Source: Candidatus Poribacteria bacterium | GTDB lineage: Bacteria > Poribacteria > WGA-4E > WGA-3G | Assembly (NCBI GenBank): GCA_022827885.1 | Contig: JAJEIP010000081.1 | Coordinates: 1-64,000 of the forward strand | Reading direction: 5' to 3' | Length of the DNA stretch: 64,000 nucleotides | In this document: positions 82 through 64,000 of the stretch, piece after piece | Layout: each line of letters opens with the position of its first letter | Numbering within the stretch: position 1 is the stretch's first letter | The notes under the pieces: model-generated | Database searches by the model: none | What the model was told of the DNA's origin: nothing | Seen by the model: only the letters and a program-made list of their open reading frames with translations | Translations under genes and position numbers: made by a program

Positions 82-193
82 AATACCAGAGGCTAACATA
101 AATCTCAGAGAATGTCTATATATTTTTAGCATTCACCATAAATGGTTCTGGATGCACCAAAGAATCTCTTAACTGACAACCGACAACTAATAC

Positions 194-1225
194 ATGGATT
201 CACTTCGGCTCTTTATTAACGGTTTTCTGATAGGTATCGCCAACATCATCCCGGGTATGAGTGGCGGGACGCTTGCCCTCGTTTTAGGTATCTATGAACG
301 ACTCATCGGTGCCTTACGGTGTATCGGGCTTTCAACGGTAAAAAAACTGTTGAGAGGTGCGACCTTAAGAAAAAACGCTCTGGAAGACGCAAAGGCAGAA
401 CTCCGTCGAATTGATTTCGGCTTTCTATCACTGTTAGGCATCGGTGCGATCGCCGCCGTCCTGCTCACATCAAAACTGATTGTTTATCTACTAAACCATC
501 ACCACGATGCGACTTACGGGTTCTTTAGCGGTTTAATTCTGATCTCTATCCTGATACCGATGCGTATGCTCAAGGCGTTCGGTTGGAAAGAACTGTTAGT
601 CCTACTGATCGCTGTTGCACTGATATTAAGTCTGTCTATTGGGACCACCGAAAAACAGTTAGATCGGGTGGCGTATAAATCTGGGATAGAAACAACGACA
701 GGTAGCGAGGTATCCGAACGGGGCACTGCGCTGCCAACGTCCTGGGAACTCGTGCTTTTTTTTGGGAGCGGCGCGCTGGCGATTTCAGCAATGATTCTGC
801 CCGGTATTAGCGGTTCGTTTCTGATGCTCGCCCTCGGGGTCTACTTTCCGCTCTTGACGGCGATAAACACAATGTTAGAGAGTATTCCAGAATTGCTCAA
901 CGGGATCCTCGAGGCGTCATTGCTGGGCAGTTTACTCATTATTAGCTTCACAACAGTTGGATGCTTGTTCGGACTCTTAGCATTTACACGTTTGCTCAAT
1001 TATTTACTGGAACGCTATCGGAACCTGACGATCGCCTTTCTCATCGGACTGATGGTAGGTTCACTTTATGGGTTATGGCCCTTTCGCGAGTTCACACTGA
1101 TAGATGGGGAACGGATAGACACGGCTCATATCTTACCGCACTTTGATATGAACCTACTTATCACGCTGGCGGCTTTTCTTGTCGGTTGTGGGGTTATCTA
1201 CTTATTTACGCGTTTAGAGAATTAA
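194..1225 (+). CDS. DUF368 / PopT-like undecaprenyl-phosphate translocase
   Basis: A 343-residue multi-spanning membrane protein. It carries two related signature segments, PGMSGGT near residue 21 and PGISGS near residue 204, as in DUF368 proteins, each lying in a hydrophobic repeat, so the protein looks internally duplicated. DUF368 members (PopT) are known to recycle undecaprenyl phosphate across the inner membrane for peptidoglycan and surface-polymer synthesis. The window also carries uppS, which makes the same lipid carrier's precursor, and an O-antigen ligase-like protein. The gene ends 6 bases before nadK, so the two are probably co-transcribed. The hydrophilic stretch around residues 155-180 should be a loop. 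Family membership is clear; the transport direction is taken from the family. Confidence 0.85.
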   Translation: MDSLRLFINGFLIGIANIIPGMSGGTLALVLGIYERLIGALRCIGLSTVKKLLRGATLRKNALEDAKAELRRIDFGFLSLLGIGAIAAVLLTSKLIVYLLNHHHDATYGFFSGLILISILIPMRMLKAFGWKELLVLLIAVALILSLSIGTTEKQLDRVAYKSGIETTTGSEVSERGTALPTSWELVLFFGSGALAISAMILPGISGSFLMLALGVYFPLLTAINTMLESIPELLNGILEASLLGSLLIISFTTVGCLFGLLAFTRLLNYLLERYRNLTIAFLIGLMVGSLYGLWPFREFTLIDGERIDTAHILPHFDMNLLITLAAFLVGCGVIYLFTRLEN

Positions 1226-1231
1226 ATGTAA

Positions 1232-2245
1232 ATGAAAAAAATAAAGAACGTCGGTTTATTCGTCAATACGACCAAAGCAAACGCGGCGGGTGTCGTCGAA
1301 GGCGTGTCTATGTGGTTAGAGGAACAGGGTACCGTTCCACTTCTATCAGACGAACAAGCCGTTGCATTAGGACACCCTCAAACGGGCATCTCCAAAACAG
1401 AGGTTGTAGAGCACGCCGATGTCCTTCTCGTCCTCGGTGGAGATGGGACGCTCCTCAGCGCAGCGCATACACCGAAGATTGAAAATGTGCCTATCTTAGC
1501 GATCAACATCGGGACCCTTGGATTTCTGACAGACGCCTCCCTCGATGAACTGTATCCGACCCTGAACGCCCTTTTGACAGGAGCTTATCGGATAGAACAT
1601 CGGATGATGTTAGAGGTCATTGTGAACGGTCTCCAAGCCGACTCTAACGAACTGCAAGGGAACATTAACACCAAAAACGCAGTCCGTAACGCGCAGGGAC
1701 GAGGGGACTTTGCCCGGACAGAGGGCGGATATAGAGAAGGGAAACCCGTCGAACACGAAAGCCAGTTGACTGAACCGCAAGGTAAGATTAAAACTTTCGC
1801 ACTCAACGATGTTGTGATTCGGCACTACACGCATCTCATTGAATTAGATGCTTACGTCGATGGAGAACTCTTTATACCGTATAACGCCGATGGGTTGATC
1901 ATCGCAACGCCGAGCGGATCGACCGGCTATTCGCTCTCCTGTGCTGGGACGATCGTTGCACCACAGGTGGAGGCGATTCTGCTGACACCCATCGCACCCC
2001 ATAGCTTGACAGTGCGTCCTTTCATCGCCGACGGCGCCGCGGAAATAACCGTCAAAATGCGCGCTGCATACCAGAGTGTAGATGTTTTTGTGGACGGTCA
2101 ACGCGAGACATACAGTCTCACTGCGGGTGCCGTCATCAGCGTGAAAAAAGCGGAGCGAACAATTCAACTCATCCGTTCACAGAACCATAGTTACTATAGA
2201 GCCTTACGCGAAAAGCTCATGTTGGGCGAGAGAATTTTTAAATAA
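1232..2245 (+). CDS. nadK: NAD kinase with an in-frame repeat-derived insertion
   Basis: ATP-NAD kinase, cytosolic, making NADP from NAD. The diagnostic motifs are present: LGGDGTLL (around residue 70) for nucleotide binding, NIGTLGFL (about residue 92) and the glycine-rich TPSGSTGYS (about residue 230). The protein is 337 residues, roughly 45-50 longer than typical bacterial NadK. The excess lies at about residues 135-190, between the MMLEV strand and the conserved ALNDVV strand. This stretch coincides with a copy of the dispersed repeat described separately, and its translation ends EPQGKIK. The kinase reading frame is preserved across it. The position corresponds to a loop before a core strand, so activity is plausible. 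The gene follows DUF368/PopT after 6 bases. Confidence 0.93.
   Translation: MKKIKNVGLFVNTTKANAAGVVEGVSMWLEEQGTVPLLSDEQAVALGHPQTGISKTEVVEHADVLLVLGGDGTLLSAAHTPKIENVPILAINIGTLGFLTDASLDELYPTLNALLTGAYRIEHRMMLEVIVNGLQADSNELQGNINTKNAVRNAQGRGDFARTEGGYREGKPVEHESQLTEPQGKIKTFALNDVVIRHYTHLIELDAYVDGELFIPYNADGLIIATPSGSTGYSLSCAGTIVAPQVEAILLTPIAPHSLTVRPFIADGAAEITVKMRAAYQSVDVFVDGQRETYSLTAGAVISVKKAERTIQLIRSQNHSYYRALREKLMLGERIFK
1678..1793 (+). repeat. Dispersed leader-type repeat, copy inside nadK
   Basis: This stretch starts CGCAGTCCGTAAC, contains GAGGGCGGATATAGAGAAGG and GAAACCC, and ends TTGACTGAACCGCAAGG followed by TAAGATTAAAA. It matches copies at 4469-4559, 23422-23515, 47483-47568 and 63787-63877. 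Here the element lies within an open reading frame and is translated as ...LTEPQGKIK. It is longer than the others because of about 20 extra bases after CCGTAAC. Confidence 0.8.
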
Positions 2246-4356: not shown

Positions 4357-4468
4357 CTTTTAATTCATGGGCCCCTGAGCGGCTTACCACGGCATTTCCG
4401 GCAGGCCTCCCAAAGACAGGACGTTTGCCAAAGATGCCCAACCGCGCACAAGCACTCATTAAAAAAGT

Positions 4469-4559
4469 GCGCAGCTTGGAATGTAGTGGAAAGCGACTCT
4501 ACGGAGTAGAATGTCAATAGCCAAACCAATCGGACCGAACCGCAAGGAACATTTAAAAA
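4469..4559 (+). repeat. Dispersed leader-type repeat, full copy upstream of the indolepyruvate oxidoreductase gene
   Basis: Starts GCGCAGCTTGGAATGTAGTG and ends CGGACCGAACCGCAAGG then AACATTTAAAA, immediately before the ATG at 4560. The AAGGA inside the element is the only good ribosome-binding site for that gene, 10 bases from the start. The closest relative is the copy at 63787-63877. Confidence 0.8.
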
Positions 4560-7500
4560 ATGGACGACAGGTTTACACAAGCCAGTGGAACACATGTCTA
4601 TACCGGATGCGAGTTATTAGTTAAGGGTGCCTTAGAGAGCGGTGTTAGCCTCCTCACGGGTTACCCCGGCTCCCCACTCGCCGAAGTATTTGACACTATT
4701 GAACGCAATGCTGAATTGTTGAAAACCAACGGCATCGTCGCGCAGATAGCCAACAACGAGGCATTGAGTATCGCGCGCCTCAACGGTTCGCAGATGGCGG
4801 ATGTCCGCGCGATTGCATTTATGAAGAGTGTTGGCTTTCATGTCGCCGCTGATTCACTGGCGATCAGTAACCTTGCAGGAACAACCGGGGGTGCCGTTGT
4901 TGTGGTCGGTGACGATACATGGTCCCATAGCACACAGGTCCCCGCTGATTCCCGATTCTTGGCACGGCATGTCCAAACACCTCTGATTGAACCTGCGACA
5001 TTTCAGGAACTTAAGGACTGGGTTCACTGCGCCTTCCAAATTTCCGCGGCATCGAACCTCTACGTCTGCTACTTAACTACCGAAAACCAGGCAAGCGGCG
5101 GGGGCGCTGTAGAACTCCATCCTAACATTTATCCCGAAATTAGCGACTTGAAGCAGATCAACTTGGATACCCAACACATCGATGCCGATAAACGGGTCAT
5201 TCTCCCGCCACATACTGCACAGATTGAAGTGGAGGCATTGAGAGAGCGGATCCCCACCGCCCTTGAGACAGCCCGGAACCTCGGACTTAACACAATCCAG
5301 TTCATAGAAGAAACGCCAAATCGGAAGAAACACCGCCTCGGGTTTGTCAGTGCGGGTTTGGCTTATAGTTGCCTGCTCCATGCCCTCGGGGAACTCGGGT
5401 TGGACGGTGAAATCCCGATTCTCAAACTCGGTATGACGCATCCTATTGACAAGGACCTCATCAGAGAATTCGCTGCAGAGGTCGAGGAAATCTACGTGGT
5501 TGAGGAAAAACGTCCGCTTTTAGAGAACGAAATAAAAGCATTCATCACGCAAGGATATCAGAATGGCGATATGGATCGATATGTAAACGTGTGGGGCAAA
5601 CAATTTCCCAACGGCTTGGCAGGAATTCCGGTAACTTCTGGTTTAGATACCTCTATCCTTATTCAAAAACTTATCCCACTTCTCAAACATCTCTTCGGTA
5701 ATGGCAGTCGGCAATCAGCAGCCAGCAAGAGAGGAATCGGGGTTACAAACCCCTCCCACAACCTCTTTACCGAAAGCCATACAGCAACCTATCACGATCC
5801 AAAAATCGATCTGGAACATATCTCAGGTGAGGAAACACTCCAACAACAGGTCTCCGCCCAGCACATCGACATTCCCCAGCGGACCCCTACCTTTTGTCCG
5901 GGCTGTCCGCATCGTGATTCTTCGAGCGTCTTCCTTGAAATTACGAAACAATTCATGGATGCGGATTATATGAAGAAACATCATGATTTAGGACCGGTTG
6001 ATCTCGTTTTTCATGGGGATATCGGTTGCTATTCAATGCTGAAATATGAACCGTTTCCACGTTTAATGCACAATCTTTCCGCGATGGCATTGGGTGGCGG
6101 TGCGGGGGCTGGTATTGACCCATTTATCACAAACAAGCAGATCGTTTTCATGGGGGATTCGACCTTTTTCCACGGCGGGATGGCAGCGATTTCGGATTCA
6201 ATCAAAAACAACCAAGACATCGCCTACATTATTTTAGACAATCAGACAACAGCGATGACGGGACATCAACCGACACCCGCGGGTGAGCTTGACCTCCTCG
6301 GCAATCCGACGTTCGCACAAGATATTGAGCAAGTCGCACAAGGACTCGTGGGTAATTCCGATATAGAAATCGTGCGGACCAACCCGGAAGACAGGGTGAA
6401 CTATAAAAAACATCTGGAGAAAACCATTCTGAAATCGGGTGTCAAAATTATCATCGCCGATAAGGAGTGTGCGATTACCTATCAGCGTCGCATCCGACGC
6501 GAACAACGGCAAACAGTCGCTAAAGATGGTTTTCTTAAATACGAAAAGCATATTAATATAACGCCTGAGGTCTGTGAGTTTTGTCGAGAATGTACCACTG
6601 CCACGGGATGTCCGGGATTAAAAATAGTCGATACCGATTACGGTGAGAAAATCGCCATCGATCAGTCAAATTGTGTTTCCGATGGTGCTTGCGCCCGAAT
6701 TAAATACGCATGTCCAGCGTTTGAAGAGGTTATTGTCACCCGCAAATGCCCGCCTCAAGATCAAACAACAACCTCCAGAAATCGTGCACTCTTGAGTGAT
6801 GAACCTTTACCACCGCCCCCCCTAGGGACATTCGAGCAGCGGTGGAACATGTACGCCGCCGGTGTCGGGGGCATGGGGATTGGCACGATTTCAAAAGTCC
6901 TCGTGGTTGCCGGTTATCTTCAGGGCTACGACGTGACGTTTTGCGATAGGAAAGGATTGGCAATCCGCAATGGCGGTGTTTACACCCACATCACATATAT
7001 GCAACCGGGTGTTCACGCCTCGCCAATGATTCCTTATGGTAAGGCGGATCTTCTATTAGGGCTTGATATTTTAGAAGCCGTCCGGGGTATCACTGCGCAA
7101 TCGCTCTTCCGCATCGCGTCATCACATCGAACCACTGCTGTCGTGAATACAGCGAAAACTGAAACGATAACCACGCTCATCGGTAAAGACCATTTTGATC
7201 CAGAGACCCTTGAAGCGTCCCTCCAGACCTATACGAATGCGGACACATATTTTGGGACGGATCTATTTACAGTTTCTGAGCAATTGTTCGGGAGCAAACT
7301 CTACGCGAACATGATGCTTCTGGGGACAGCCTTCCAACGGCAAATGATACCTCTGGAATTGGAACCCCTCCAATTGGCACTTAAGCAGATGGTCCCGCAC
7401 GCCGATTTGGATACCAATATGAAAGCGTTCACCGTTGGACGCCGTCTTGCCTTAGAAAACATCGAATCCCTTGCGGATACACATTCAGAAAAGTATCCGC

Positions 7501-8231: not shown

Positions 8232-9115
8232 AATCCCAGACGCACGTCATCGAACCGCAAGGCAGAATAAAAAAATTGACCGGACATACGCGTATTGTCG
8301 GTGTTATTGGTGATCCGGTTGCACACAGTCGTTCACCACAAATGCACAATGCCGCTTTTGCGAAAGCAGGTCTCGATTATGTATATGTCCCGTTTCATGT
8401 CCGCCCCGATGATTTGGCAGCTGCGATTGCTGGGTTTAAAGCGATTAATGTCGTCGGCATTAACGTAACGCTCCCCCACAAACAAGCCGTCATCCCGTTC
8501 CTCACATCAATCTCTCGGGAAGCGGAACTCATCGGTGCTGTGAACACACTGACGTTTGTTGAAGGGGACATACATGGCGATAATACAGATGCCCCCGGTG
8601 TCTTACAAGCGTTAGAAGAGGACGAAAACACGTCTGGGACGCCGGTAGGCGAGAATGTCGTGGTTTTAGGAGCAGGCGGTGCTGCGAGGGCTGTCGTTGT
8701 TGCGTTAGCACTTAGAGGCGTCGCCGCAATTACAATCGCCAACCGCACGGTGGAAAAAGCGGTTTCTTTAGCAACAGAGATGGATCAGAAGACAGGGGTT
8801 TCCATGCAAGGAATGGGGCTCACAGATGAACGATTGCCGCTCTCTGTTCGGGAGAGCAAACTCCTCGTCAACACTGCAACGATAAGCATGGATGTAACAC
8901 AACCGTTACTGATTTCCGCTGACTGGCTTCAACCGAATACGATTGTTTATGACATTGTGTATACGCCGCCGGTAACACCTTTGATGCAAGCCGCGACCGA
9001 GCGCGGCTGTCAAACGCTCGGCGGTATTGGGATGTTAGTTCATCAGGGGGCTATCGCTTTTGAGAAATGGACGGGTGTTGCGCCGTGCACTGAGACAATG
9101 CGTCAAGCCCTATAG
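8228..9115 (+). CDS. aroE: Shikimate dehydrogenase (NADP+)
   Basis: Reduces 3-dehydroshikimate to shikimate. Substrate and catalytic residues are visible in SRSPQMHN (about residue 37), NVTLPHKQA (Lys about 85) and DNTDAPG (Asp about 121). The NADP-binding motif GAGGAARAV follows at about 147, and the C-terminus has GMLVHQGA. Two starts compete. ATG 8228 overlaps the previous stop (ATGA) and gives 295 residues. TTG 8276 sits directly behind a copy of the dispersed repeat's SD module (CCGCAAGG...AATAAAAAAA) and gives about 279 residues beginning near the conserved VIGDP strand. The extra residues in the longer form are repeat-derived (EPQGRIKK). I keep the coupled ATG as the coordinate and regard TTG as about equally likely. 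Confidence 0.92.
   Translation: MKSQTHVIEPQGRIKKLTGHTRIVGVIGDPVAHSRSPQMHNAAFAKAGLDYVYVPFHVRPDDLAAAIAGFKAINVVGINVTLPHKQAVIPFLTSISREAELIGAVNTLTFVEGDIHGDNTDAPGVLQALEEDENTSGTPVGENVVVLGAGGAARAVVVALALRGVAAITIANRTVEKAVSLATEMDQKTGVSMQGMGLTDERLPLSVRESKLLVNTATISMDVTQPLLISADWLQPNTIVYDIVYTPPVTPLMQAATERGCQTLGGIGMLVHQGAIAFEKWTGVAPCTETMRQAL
8253..8275 (+). repeat. Short copy of the dispersed SD module at the start of aroE
   Basis: ACCGCAAGGCAGAATAAAAA here matches the 3' end of the leader repeat and is followed exactly at the expected place by TTG (8276), an alternative in-frame start of aroE. The upstream part of the element is not evident. Confidence 0.6.
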
Positions 9116-23369: not shown

Positions 23370-25451
23370 ATGACAGTCGGGCGTTTGTTACGTATCCATG
23401 TGCAAACTCCTAATCACTGGCGCGCAGCCCGTAACGAAGTGGAGGGCGGTTTTACGGAAGGGAAACCCTTCATTCATCAAACCCATCTCAACGAACCGCA
23501 AGGAATAATTAAAAATTCGCTAACACACTCACGAATTCCCGCCCACGGTGTCACACTCAAATCTATTCTTATTGCTGTTATTCTCATACCGATTAACTGC
23601 TACTGGGTTATTGAGATGGAGGTTATTCGGTATTCAGGTCATCCTGTGACGATTTCCCTCTTTTTTAATGTGATCTTCAGTCTATTCCTGATTATCGGCA
23701 TGAACGCCGTGTTGCGCCGTTTCATCCCCAGTTTAGCATTGGCACAAAGCGAGTTAGTCATTGTTTACCTAATGCTTTCCATTGCTTCGGGAATTACTGG
23801 CCACGATATGCTTGAGATTTTGGTCCCGATGTTAGGGCACGCCTTCCGTTTTGCGACCCCGGAAAACGAATGGCAACAGTTGTTTGTCCCGTTCCTGCCA
23901 AAGTGGCTTACCGTTAGCGACACGCCCCTTTTACACGGCTATTATGAGGGTGAACTCCCTCTCTACACAGTTGAAACATTGCTTGGCTGGGCAACGCCGG
24001 TCCTCTGGTGGACTGCCTTTATTACTGTGTTGATTTTCGGTATGCTTTGCATCAATATAATTGTTCGTAAACAGTGGATCGAACACGAGAAATTAAGTTA
24101 TCCGATCATCCAACTCCCGCTCCAATTGACAGAAACACCACAGAATCGTCTCTTTCAGAATAAATTGATGTGGCTCGGTTTTGGAATTGCAGGTGCGCTT
24201 GCTTTTTGGAATGGTGTCAACTTTCTGTACCCGATCCTACCTGAACTACGGACCCGTGTGCGAAGTTTCCAAATTTTTACGGAGAGTCCGTGGAATGCTA
24301 TGGGAAGCATCCCGTTTTCACTGTATCCGTTCGCGATCGGACTCGGTTTCTTTATTCCTCTGGATCTCTCGTTCTCGTGTTGGTTCTTCTTCTGGTATTG
24401 GCGCTTCATGCGTGTCCTTGGTGCTGCCCTCGGCTTACGGAGCCTACCTCGCTTTCCGTACATGAACGAGCAGGCATCAGGTGGCTATCTCGCTTTGTGC
24501 GCTTTAGCTATCTGGGCAAGTCGCAGACACCTTTTAGACGTTGCCAAAACAGTTTTTGGATTTGGAAAGATTGCGGAGGACCCGCGGCAAGAACCGATGT
24601 CATATCGCGGCGCGACGATTGGTCTCATCGCAGTAATGGCATTCCTTGTGCTTTTTTGCTACTATGGGGGTGCTGAAATTTGGGTGATGTTTGCATTCTT
24701 CGTTATTTATTATATGATCTCCATTGCTATTACGCGGATGCGCGCCGAATTAGGCACGCCTGTGCATGATCTGCACTACTCCGGTCCTGATGAGATTCTG
24801 AGTCGGACTGTCGGAACAAGGCGGTTGGGGAGAGACAACCTCATTATGTTTTCGATGTTTTGGTTTATCAATCGTGCGCATCGCAGCCATCCAATGCCGC
24901 ACCAGCTCGAAGGTTTCAAGATCATGGAACGGACAAACATGACGATGAACCGTATCATTTTCGCCTTGACCCTCGCGACCGTTTTAGGATCGTTAGCAGG
25001 ATTTTGGGCGTTAATCGACCGCGGGTATCGCCTCGGCATGGAGGTACGGGCCTATTGGCCCTCTCTAAGTGCTTTCGGCATAGAGCCGTATCGTCGCCTC
25101 GCGGGATGGTTGCAAGCCCCAGAAGAGACACTCATCCCTGAAAGCGGATTTATGGGGCTGGGGTTCCTCTTAACAACAGTGCTAATGTTCTTTCGGATGC
25201 GATTTGTATGGTGGCCCTTTCATCCCGCAGGTTTCGCTATCTCTACGAGTTGGGGTATGAATGTTACGTGGAGCTGCCTTTTCATGAGTTGGTTAATCAA
25301 ATGGCTTATTCTTCAGTACGGCGGTGTCGTTCGGCATCGCAAGATAGCGCCCTTTTTCTTAGGGTTAATTTTGGGGGAGTTTACGGTCGGGAGTCTCTGG
25401 ACAATCTTAGGGATTATCGCCGGCATTCCGACTTACGGGTTTTGGGTGTAG
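23370..25451 (+). CDS. DUF6785-type polytopic membrane protein
   Basis: A large integral membrane protein, about 690 residues, with around 14 hydrophobic segments. The blocks LKSILIAVILIPINCYWV, ISLFFNVIFSLFLI and ATPENEWQQLFVPFLPKWL match the DUF6785/DUF6784 proteins of Poribacteria and Planctomycetes as I remember them; the function of that family is unknown, though the topology suggests transport. The start is uncertain: residues before about 55 are encoded by the dispersed repeat (ending EPQGIIK), and no ATG lies between the repeat and the first conserved helix. ATG 23370 is the first in-frame ATG; a GTG lies at 23343. It faces the pseudo-ATPase gene convergently. Confidence 0.7.
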   Translation: MTVGRLLRIHVQTPNHWRAARNEVEGGFTEGKPFIHQTHLNEPQGIIKNSLTHSRIPAHGVTLKSILIAVILIPINCYWVIEMEVIRYSGHPVTISLFFNVIFSLFLIIGMNAVLRRFIPSLALAQSELVIVYLMLSIASGITGHDMLEILVPMLGHAFRFATPENEWQQLFVPFLPKWLTVSDTPLLHGYYEGELPLYTVETLLGWATPVLWWTAFITVLIFGMLCINIIVRKQWIEHEKLSYPIIQLPLQLTETPQNRLFQNKLMWLGFGIAGALAFWNGVNFLYPILPELRTRVRSFQIFTESPWNAMGSIPFSLYPFAIGLGFFIPLDLSFSCWFFFWYWRFMRVLGAALGLRSLPRFPYMNEQASGGYLALCALAIWASRRHLLDVAKTVFGFGKIAEDPRQEPMSYRGATIGLIAVMAFLVLFCYYGGAEIWVMFAFFVIYYMISIAITRMRAELGTPVHDLHYSGPDEILSRTVGTRRLGRDNLIMFSMFWFINRAHRSHPMPHQLEGFKIMERTNMTMNRIIFALTLATVLGSLAGFWALIDRGYRLGMEVRAYWPSLSAFGIEPYRRLAGWLQAPEETLIPESGFMGLGFLLTTVLMFFRMRFVWWPFHPAGFAISTSWGMNVTWSCLFMSWLIKWLILQYGGVVRHRKIAPFFLGLILGEFTVGSLWTILGIIAGIPTYGFWV
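23422..23515 (+). repeat. Dispersed leader-type repeat within the DUF6785 reading frame
   Basis: Begins GCGCAGCCCGTAACGAAGTG, has GAGGGCGG, GGAAGGGAAACCC and ACCCATCTCAACGAACCGCA and ends AGGAATAATTAAAAA. The base triplet where other copies have ATG is ATT/TCG, so either a non-standard start is used or translation begins upstream and runs through the element, as the open frame permits. Confidence 0.8.
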
Positions 25452-28371: not shown

Positions 28372-28411
28372 TTTTTAATTTTTTAATTGTTCCTTGCGGT
28401 TCGGTCAGATG
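28372..28411 (-). repeat. Dispersed SD module upstream of the P-type ATPase-like gene
   Basis: The reverse strand reads CCATCTGACCGAACCGCAAG then GAACAATTAAAAAATTAAAAA before the ATG at 28371. The AATTAAAA part is duplicated here, lengthening the spacer. The 5' part of the element is missing; thrB ends 4 bases away. Confidence 0.65.
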
Positions 28412-28414
28412 GGT

Positions 28415-29332
28415 TTAAAAAACGCTTGCTCCGTGAGCATCCGGCTTCAAAATTTTAATATCAGACGCGATCTGATGCTTTTCAAAGGCAGCTTGCATCT
28501 CTTCAGCCACCTGTTCTGTGTGCTCCAGACAATAGGCTGCGATCGTTGGTCCTGCGCCGCTCAATGCAACGCTCAGTGCGCCAGCAGTGGTAGCGGCTCC
28601 TGCCACATCATCAAACCCTGGAATCAGTGAAGTGCGGTAAGGTTGATGTAACCTATCCTTCATTGCCACACGTAACATTTCAAATTGTCTTGTGGCAATA
28701 CTGGCGATTAGCAGTGTGCTCCGGCTTGTATTATAGATTGCATCCGCGAAACCTACTGATTTCGGTAAAACTCCACGTGCTTGCTCCGTTGACAGTGGAA
28801 AATCAGGAATCGCCAACACAATCGACAGGAGGGACGGACATTCTAATCGAACAGTATGCACCTGGTCCCCCTCCTGCGCTGAAACGACGAGCCCCCCATA
28901 CAGTGAGGCAGCGACGTTATCCGGATGCCCCTCGAGTTCAGTCGCAAAGTTGAGAAGTTCTGCGTCAGAAAACGGCGTGTCGCAGAGGGCGTTTGCAGTG
29001 AGCAACCCGCCAAGAATGGCTGTTCCACTGCCGCCGAGCCCCCGAATCGCAGGTATCCCATTTTCTATCTGCAATCTGAAGCCTTTCGGACGTTTCGTCC
29101 CACTTCGATGGAAAACGAGTTCTACGGCTTGAAACGCGACATGCGCCGGTGTACTCGGTATTTTATCCGCATCTACGCCGCTGACAATCACTTCAGTCCC
29201 GGTTTCAGAAGGTTCCAACGTAACTGTGCTATAGAGTTGGAGAGCAAGCCCCAACACGTCGAATCCGGGTCCCAGATTCGTTGTGCTTGCCGGGATTCGC
29301 GCGGTAACTTTTCGGTTAAAAGTAAGAGGCAT
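28415..29332 (-). CDS. thrB: Homoserine kinase
   Basis: A GHMP-family kinase of 305 residues that phosphorylates L-homoserine in threonine synthesis. The N-terminal ARIPASTTNLGPGFDVLGLAL is the ThrB signature. The ATP loop is AIRGLGGSGTAILGG (about residue 90) where the family has GLGSSAA, a conservative variant. GHPDNVAASLYGGLVVS and the C-terminal LSGAGPTIAAY also fit. A variant SD module (AAGGTATAATTAAAA) precedes the ATG. It lies 35 bases after the aminotransferase gene on the same strand, so the two may share a transcript. Confidence 0.92.
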   Translation of the reverse strand: MPLTFNRKVTARIPASTTNLGPGFDVLGLALQLYSTVTLEPSETGTEVIVSGVDADKIPSTPAHVAFQAVELVFHRSGTKRPKGFRLQIENGIPAIRGLGGSGTAILGGLLTANALCDTPFSDAELLNFATELEGHPDNVAASLYGGLVVSAQEGDQVHTVRLECPSLLSIVLAIPDFPLSTEQARGVLPKSVGFADAIYNTSRSTLLIASIATRQFEMLRVAMKDRLHQPYRTSLIPGFDDVAGAATTAGALSVALSGAGPTIAAYCLEHTEQVAEEMQAAFEKHQIASDIKILKPDAHGASVF

Positions 29333-46541: not shown

Positions 46542-46666
46542 GCGCGTAGTCCGTAACATTGTCCTGCAGGTTTCCTTTATAAGAGACCTGCGTTAGGAAG
46601 GTCGGATTCGAGCAAGGAGTATCAGAGCTCGAATGTTATCTGATTTAACCGCAAGGAAACTAAAAA
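46542..46666 (+). repeat. Dispersed leader-type repeat upstream of the PhyH gene at 46667
   Basis: It starts GCGCGTAGTCCGTAAC, has an AT/GTCCTGCAGG-centred middle (with GGTTTCCTTTATAAGAGACC) unlike the other copies, and ends TTAACCGCAAGGAAACTAAA, then AA, at the ATG. A similar middle (ATTGTCCCACAGGTTTCC) occurs at 9565-9588. Confidence 0.65.
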
Positions 46667-47482
46667 ATGGAATTCGTTCAGTTGACAGACGCACAACGTG
46701 AGGAATTTGAGGAGAACGGATACTTTATCGTGCGGTCGGTACTTGACAGCGATATGATAGATCGTTTGACTGAGGCAGGGGACCGACTCATGGAGTCGTT
46801 TGAATATAACGGCTACTATGCGCATAAGCGGGACGGTTTGGTGCAGGAGCCTGTCTTCGCAGAACTCACATCGCAGACAACAGCGATTCCCTTAATCATC
46901 CAACTGCTTGGCACAAATATCCATATCACGAATACTGCGCTCATCTACAAACATCCGCAACTGCCTGAGAAACTGGAGAGCCGTGGATGGCATCGAGATG
47001 CGGGTATATTTTTAGACCTCGGATACAAGAATTGCCCACGCGTCGGCTTGAAAGTAGGCTACTGTTTGACGGATTTCACCGTGCCGAACTCCGGTGGGAC
47101 GTTGTTTGTTCCGAAAAGCCATCTATCCGAGGAACCGTTGGGGATCCCCGAAGGCGAAATTGATCCAATTGAACCCTGCGATGAACCCGTTTTGCGTGCA
47201 GGCGATGCGTTTTTCTTTGAAAACCGAATCTATCACACCGCCGGTGTCAACTTTACGGAGAATGTCGCTAAGGTTGTTATCTACGGATACCACTATGCAT
47301 GGCTCAAGCCGGAACCTTATTTATTATATTACAATGACACACTGCAACCTGAAGCGTCGGTGATGGAGAACCTGGACGATCTTGGCAATCAATTTCTCGG
47401 TGGCGGCGGGGGTGCAGCGGCGGCGTGGGCAGCAGCACATAATTTGCAGTTTGAGGAAGTCCCACACGTCGTGACAATCTGA
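46667..47482 (+). CDS. Phytanoyl-CoA dioxygenase (PhyH) family protein
   Basis: A 271-residue Fe(II)/2-oxoglutarate oxygenase-like protein. HxD lies in SRGWHRDAGIFLD (about residue 107), the strand NSGGTLFVPKSH at about 143 and the distal His in FENRIYHTAGVNFT (about 190). The C-terminus has a Gly/Ala-rich run (GGGGGAAAAWAAAH). The first 40 residues are nearly the same as those of the incomplete gene at the right window edge. The gene is bracketed by the dispersed repeat: a direct copy before the ATG and an inverted copy directly after the stop. Confidence 0.88.
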   Translation: MEFVQLTDAQREEFEENGYFIVRSVLDSDMIDRLTEAGDRLMESFEYNGYYAHKRDGLVQEPVFAELTSQTTAIPLIIQLLGTNIHITNTALIYKHPQLPEKLESRGWHRDAGIFLDLGYKNCPRVGLKVGYCLTDFTVPNSGGTLFVPKSHLSEEPLGIPEGEIDPIEPCDEPVLRAGDAFFFENRIYHTAGVNFTENVAKVVIYGYHYAWLKPEPYLLYYNDTLQPEASVMENLDDLGNQFLGGGGGAAAAWAAAHNLQFEEVPHVVTI

Positions 47483-63699: not shown

Positions 63700-63786
63700 T
63701 TTTTTAATTATTGCAATAGACATCGTTTTGCATTTATGATAGCATATTTCTAAATGTCTATCAACTTTCTACAGGCTAAAGAAAAC

Positions 63787-63877
63787 GCGCAGCTCGTAAT
63801 GAAATGGAGAGCGGATATACGGAACGGAATCTTAAGGACCAAACCCAGCTGACCGAACCGCAAGGAAAATTAAAAAA
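63787..63877 (+). repeat. Dispersed leader-type repeat, full copy before the PhyH gene at the right edge
   Basis: Starts GCGCAGCTCGTAATGAAATG, has GAGAGCGGATATACGGAACG and ends CAGCTGACCGAACCGCAAGG, then AAAATTAAAAAA, directly at the ATG 63878. It is the best-preserved copy in the window and the reference for the others. Confidence 0.85.
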
Positions 63878-64000
63878 ATGGAATTTGTTCAGTTGACAGA
63901 GACACAACGCCAAGAATTCGACGAGAACGGTTATCTCATCGTGCGTTCAGCAATTGACAGTGAGATGATTCAACGCTTAACCGAGACAGGTGACCGGCTC
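63878..64000 (+). CDS. Phytanoyl-CoA dioxygenase (PhyH) family protein, N-terminal part
   Basis: The window ends after 41 codons: MEFVQLTETQRQEFDENGYL, then IVRSAIDSEMIQRLTETGDR. The corresponding start of the gene at 46667 is MEFVQLTDAQREEFEENGYF, then IVRSVLDSDMIDRLTEAGDR, so the two are close paralogues. Both carry a dispersed-repeat copy as leader, although the middle of the leader differs. The catalytic part is beyond the window. Confidence 0.85.
   Translation, partial: MEFVQLTETQRQEFDENGYLIVRSAIDSEMIQRLTETGDRL

Follow-up and report, generated by a model that had tools for sequence, protein, structure and literature searches.

The nadK locus and its insert

The window, the whole stretch of 64,000 nucleotides that was analysed, comes from Candidatus Poribacteria, a group of uncultured, sponge-dwelling bacteria, and it harbors on the forward strand (1232 to 2245) a nadK gene encoding an NAD kinase of 337 aa that carries an in-frame insert. 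No further NadK-like gene was found in the genome of the window (G000), making this the sole copy, and the closest named relatives by NadK are Poribacteria MAGs. The Pfam N- and C-terminal domains of NAD kinase cover residues 55 to 119 and 196 to 315, with the excess lying between them, and phmmer alignments to solved NadKs are interrupted at residues ~131/190, matching the Pfam gap. Insert-free NadKs of the genus measure 292 to 299 aa, which leaves G000 a net excess of 38 to 45 residues; the excess described in an earlier note on this DNA is thus real, at a size slightly smaller than the 50 or so residues given there. About 49 extra codons, fully open, lie between the strand MMLEVIVN and FALNDVV, and an intein or intron was considered unlikely for an insert of this length and openness. 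As that note had read it, the frame is kept with no stop, and its tail is translated as EPQGKIK.

Compared with the empty nadK of G030, the inserted stretch extends from ~1649 to 1795 on the forward strand (residues ~140 to 188) and replaces an 8-residue linker. Against this reference it starts with an extra tail-like GAACTGCAAGG at 1649 to 1659, within an upstream tail-like copy, GAACTGCAAGGGAACATTAA (1649 to 1668, forward; profile match 1630 to 1668, E=0.005), which is followed by a hairpin body of the long sub-type with an internal CGCAGGGACGAGGGGACTTTGCCCGGACA palindrome (1680 to 1733, forward; profile match 1698 to 1796) and by the 3' tail GAACCGCAAGGTAAGATTAAAA (1772 to 1793, forward), so that the order in nadK is tail, hairpin body, tail. 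The bounds proposed earlier, 1678 to 1793, fit the hairpin body plus tail but fall short of the whole stretch missing from G030. A plain DNA search of the genome with the nadK insert recovered non-nadK copies at E=7e-13 and 4e-7; the excess between the MMLEV strand and ALNDVV is, as proposed, a repeat with dispersed copies in the window and the genome. A profile of repeat copies matches the insert at E=1.3e-14, with three of its 24 sequences being orthologous nadK copies (G008, G017 and G026), and the independent support comes from the plain DNA search rather than from a profile that is not independent of nadK. Two 54-nt palindromic copies, 93% identical and 83 nt apart from start to start, lie at 2313 to 2449, between nadK and a recN-like gene.

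Between G000 and G017, nonsynonymous change affects 14 of 132 sites in the insert and 2 of 634 in the core (P=1e-9) at equal synonymous divergence, and the length of the insert changes in steps of complete codons (NadK has 337, 336 and 334 aa in the trio G000, G008 and G017). This is how a translated, nearly unconstrained loop should look. In an AlphaFold2 model of mediocre quality (mean pLDDT 71.6), built on an alignment of 38 NadKs, residues 134 to 178 are disordered (pLDDT <50) and lie between strands 119 to 132 and 185 to 190, while the best Foldseek matches of the model are NAD kinases (7qvs, TM 0.68 by query length). The insert is thereby predicted to be an exposed loop on a retained NadK fold, in agreement with the earlier expectation that structure prediction would place it there.

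Distribution and turnover at the nadK site

Among the 35 genomes of the genus with nadK, 11 carry an insert, with ~38 to 76 residues added at the linker, and 24 are empty with contiguous flanks, having either the short linker 'VVDRQGFPQPFRAFALNDV' or the slightly longer 'VNSQAQASQGPQPFRAFALNDV'; nadK was not recovered from the fragmented assembly of G013. The earlier expectation that the closest relatives would lack the block holds for these 24 genomes but not for the two closest, G008 and G017, which share it, the next closest empty relative being G030; the relatives do not all carry a homologous block that is as well conserved as the remaining protein. An assembly artefact was rejected, since the insert-bearing NadK recurs in several MAGs deposited separately and in G005, whose genome is a single contig. 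In a nadK tree computed with the insert region removed, both states occur within seven close groups (e.g., G034/G033, G001/G007, G035/G024 and G012/G023), and parsimony on this tree, which is that of nadK itself and not of the species, gives 9 changes for insert presence against a mean of 9.4 for shuffled labels.

The inserts fall into three types, namely A (G034, G026, G005, G006 and G021), B (G001, G012 and G035) and C (G000, G008 and G017), each of which matches a different sub-type of the dispersed repeat; the type B hairpin, AAGC..AACCAACGGGC..GCT, recurs in intergenic copies, including one just past the 3' end of nadK in G001 (L037:2523). This copy and another of sub-type B in G018 (L054:1990) each sit immediately before the gene that follows nadK, and the former, ~500 nt from a nadK insert of the same sub-type, is a possible local donor. 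The site shows further rearrangement, with two identical 108-nt units in tandem and in frame in G026 and with an additional insert nested within the first in G006 and G021. Type A inserts of two distant clades have in common the unusual left junction EEIADSN, and such shared junctions, together with the patchy distribution, indicate that the segment was exchanged between species besides being inserted separately. Synonymous divergence is lower in the insert than in the rest of nadK, both between G012 and G035 (4/34 vs 104/200, P=9e-6) and between G034 and G026 (4/35 vs 78/205, P=0.002); these values point to a present distribution that would combine horizontal exchange with fresh insertion.

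The dispersed repeat, its host proteins and nearby start codons

The exact sequence GAACCGCAAGG occurs 177 times in the G000 genome, compared with 3 times for the reversed control, and it is found with its neighboring bases in the window at 1756 to 1799, 4521 to 4564, 8236 to 8279, 23477 to 23520 and 63839 to 63882. Counts of the exact 11-mer range from 5 to 281 per genome in the genus and do not rise above the control in the order's remaining families; of the relatives searched, this genus alone has the repeat. Two single-contig members, G022 and G028, are almost without it (5 and 9 exact 11-mers), which suits them to a comparative search for the gene that mobilises it. Outside nadK, an intergenic copy (4461 to 4560, forward) has a tail ending at the ATG of a 1223-aa gene, a place where G034, G026 and G010 have no copy; a tail copy (8236 to 8279, forward) precedes a gene with a TTG start, and further copies stand before a 959-codon ORF (28379 to 28446, reverse) and a 282-codon ORF (63779 to 63882, forward). 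The copy at 23416 to 23517 (forward) is near the 5' end of a 707-codon open frame and in phase with it; the window position ~23442 was discarded as an internal ORF insertion, since a copy so placed is probably upstream or N-terminal. A 128-nt direct repeat (79%), at 46662 to 46789 and 63873 to 64000, covers the starts of two genes that look like paralogues (MEFVQLTE..), each preceded by an element tail. At gathering scores Rfam matched nothing in the window, nine copy-bearing loci gave no match at E up to 0.1, and scans for tRNA and tmRNA found nothing.

The same reading frame (..ARNEMEGGYTERNVK..THLTEPQGKIK..) was found in at least four proteins besides NadK, which refines the earlier note: a double UvrA, a lipid kinase, AnmK and RNase J, all named by sequence reading only. 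The double-length UvrA carries the element in G017, G026, G001, G014 and G016 and is without it in the 19 other genus members read, including G000; the lipid kinase carries it in G000 and eight other members, whereas nine others have different linkers, several with TDNQQPTTDN-like repeats; AnmK carries it in G013, and RNase J of G000 has a diverged copy, in both cases in the same frame. The UvrA-like ORFs (L073, L074 and L180-L204) are ~1950 aa long with two UvrA units each, joined by a linker in which repeats land. A second leader repeat, of the AACTGACAACCGACAACTAATACATGG type, precedes start codons in the window (165 to 194) and at L269, L270, L273 and L279-L282, and in the linker of the lipid kinase it seemingly yields the peptide TDNQQPTTDN, at a place where other species have the nadK-type element. 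Frame +0 is open in 69 of 102 copies, frame +1 in 5 and frame +2 in 8, in a sample that is partly frame-selected; the coding copies were found through frame-based searches, and out-of-frame copies inside genes would escape the count. Among the places listed for reverse-frame insertions in the own genome, none lies in a stop-free open frame of more than 180 aa.

Hairpin pairing was evaluated on 22 distinct ungapped copies at four outer and two inner pairs, and it is kept in 95.5% of cells, compared with 33 to 53% in slid controls; strong compensatory change is seen as double changes in 28 cells (0/500 shuffles). The foot of the hairpin reads GTAG in some copies and GCAG in others. The usual place of the element is directly before start codons: of 60 copies outside nadK, which include orthologous ones in related contigs and so are not all independent, 27 have their Shine-Dalgarno-like tail, GACCGAACCGCAAGGNAAAATTAAAA, immediately in front of an ORF that opens with ATG and spans 80 codons or more; the corresponding rate is 4.4% for random positions and 9.7% for AAGGA/GAGGA sites.

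Orthologous upstream regions differ in having the element present, absent or replaced at the start codon. At an epimerase-like gene (L284 and L285 vs L286-L300; G000:C96:33620), an ATG coincides with or closely precedes the conserved KKALVTGG (or equivalent) in all 13 readable element-free orthologues; the element of G000 and G010 reaches right up to this point (..GGAAAAATTAAAAAAGC..), the ATG is gone and the frame is open through the element, which contains an in-phase ATGGAGGGCGG. With the ATG lost and the frame open, translation of this gene would have to begin at a codon of the element itself, either ATT or an ATG in its body, or else at a start further downstream. Where no ATG follows immediately, a downstream long ORF lies in the TEPQG phase in 17 copies and in the other phases in 2 and 2, with 5 of the 17 being nadK and several others orthologues, so that independent cases are fewer. 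In G000, the conserved N-termini of a CoaBC-like (L233), a PafA-like (L234), a threonine-synthase-like (L237) and an Lnt-like gene (L239) follow the element tail in phase with no ATG between, resembling the epimerase-like gene in this respect. A tentative reading, which we regard as possible though doubtful, is that the repeat is a mobile cassette for translation starts, which would bring a ribosome-binding tail and sometimes its own start codon and replace the leader and N-terminus of a gene, protein inserts being the same cassette inside ORFs.

Explanation and precedents

The nadK block is very probably a copy of the genus's own mobile hairpin repeat, akin in behavior to the palindromic elements of Rickettsia (RPEs), that landed in the linker, was exchanged there and is translated as a disordered loop. 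A short (~95 to 115 nt) dispersed hairpin repeat would have landed in the variable linker of NadK, between the last strand of the N-terminal domain and the C-terminal domain, and would then have been exchanged between species. Since the forward TEPQG frame is normally stop-free, a forward insertion with a length divisible by three would be translated into a disordered loop at the surface. With NadK present as a single copy, purifying selection would purge out-of-frame, reverse and badly placed copies, leaving the peptide itself nearly unconstrained. The enzyme presumably works with the insert, the peptide would have no function of its own, and the element may be moved by a machinery acting in trans or be copied when its tails recombine.

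Several other lines of reasoning were considered. If the peptide were a functional mobile linker or regulatory module, such as a docking or degradation tag, selected in NadK, UvrA, the lipid kinase and RNase J, one would understand the same frame and recognisable peptide in five proteins and the retention of the insert in G000, G008 and G017; we nevertheless judge this improbable, as 24 of 35 relatives have a NadK without insert, amino-acid change is near neutral, and the NadK loop takes varied sub-types and duplications while the lipid kinase takes other repeats. More improbable still is an intron-like splicing of the block from the transcript, or a bypassing-like skip over it by the ribosome, to give a mature protein without it: the conserved pairing of the hairpin would suit such a process, which would also account for tolerance in essential enzymes, but the internal copies seen, mostly found via their frame, are all in frame and stop-free with whole-codon length changes, none of which skipping would need. 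We give equally little credence to an insert that is old in nadK and was lost many times, with the other repeats seeded from nadK or convergent. The type A inserts of two distant clades with the same left junction speak for such an origin, whereas the inserts of distant carriers (as in G012 and G035) have a synonymous divergence two to four times lower than the core, which implies inserts younger than the core-gene splits, and each of the types A, B and C has its match in a different dispersed sub-type.

The best reading is therefore still an RPE-like mobile repeat, new to Poribacteria and tolerated as a linker. The Rickettsia-like tolerated insertion suggested earlier gains support from the empty relatives and the predicted loop, the likeness being one of behavior. 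On this reading, Poribacteria would join Rickettsia as a second lineage where core enzymes have repeatedly acquired sequence from a selfish hairpin repeat, and its many close genomes make gain, loss, exchange, duplication and constraint traceable at one essential gene; it becomes testable whether peptides of this sort are carried along neutrally or provide material for new protein functions, and whether translation starts can come from a mobile repeat.

Among known systems, GTAG-tagged REPs, mobilised by RAYT transposases, are hairpins of high copy number that are mostly intergenic and sometimes within genes (PMC3733652). The Poribacteria repeat likewise has a high copy number and is mostly intergenic and sometimes inside genes; its hairpin starts with GTAG in some copies and with GCAG in others, and its unit is longer and has a conserved 3' tail. 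A Y1/RAYT transposase as mobiliser finds no support in copy number, as the Y1_Tnp matches (0 to 12 per genome) do not track that of the repeat (G013, 173 exact 11-mers and 0 matches; G005, 33 and 12). MITEs are small non-autonomous dispersed repeats, some of which give in-frame fusions (PMC10969869), and the present repeat is similarly small and dispersed and makes in-frame insertions; on the other hand, the repeat flanking the nadK and uvrA inserts resembles the element's own tail more than a short target duplication, and neither clean terminal inverted repeats nor a clean short target duplication were evident in the aligned copies. The repeat is left unassigned to REP/RAYT or MITE because the evidence on their defining features is not decisive. 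A palindromic coding repeat of Poribacteria was not found in the open-access literature, which is no proof of absence.

The closest precedent, likened by behavior and not by sequence, is that of the RPEs, short palindromic dispersed repeats that are found between genes and in frame in unrelated core proteins, each giving a recognisable peptide, with 44 insertions reported in R. conorii (PMC10969869; PMC3733652). The Poribacteria repeat is likewise dispersed, hairpin-forming and located both between genes and in frame in unrelated proteins. It differs in belonging to another phylum, in being restricted to a genus, in its Shine-Dalgarno-like tail and frequent position at start codons, and in the turnover, tandem doubling and inter-species exchange documented at the nadK site. 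Common descent with RPEs seems unlikely, because the repeat is limited to one genus among the relatives searched.
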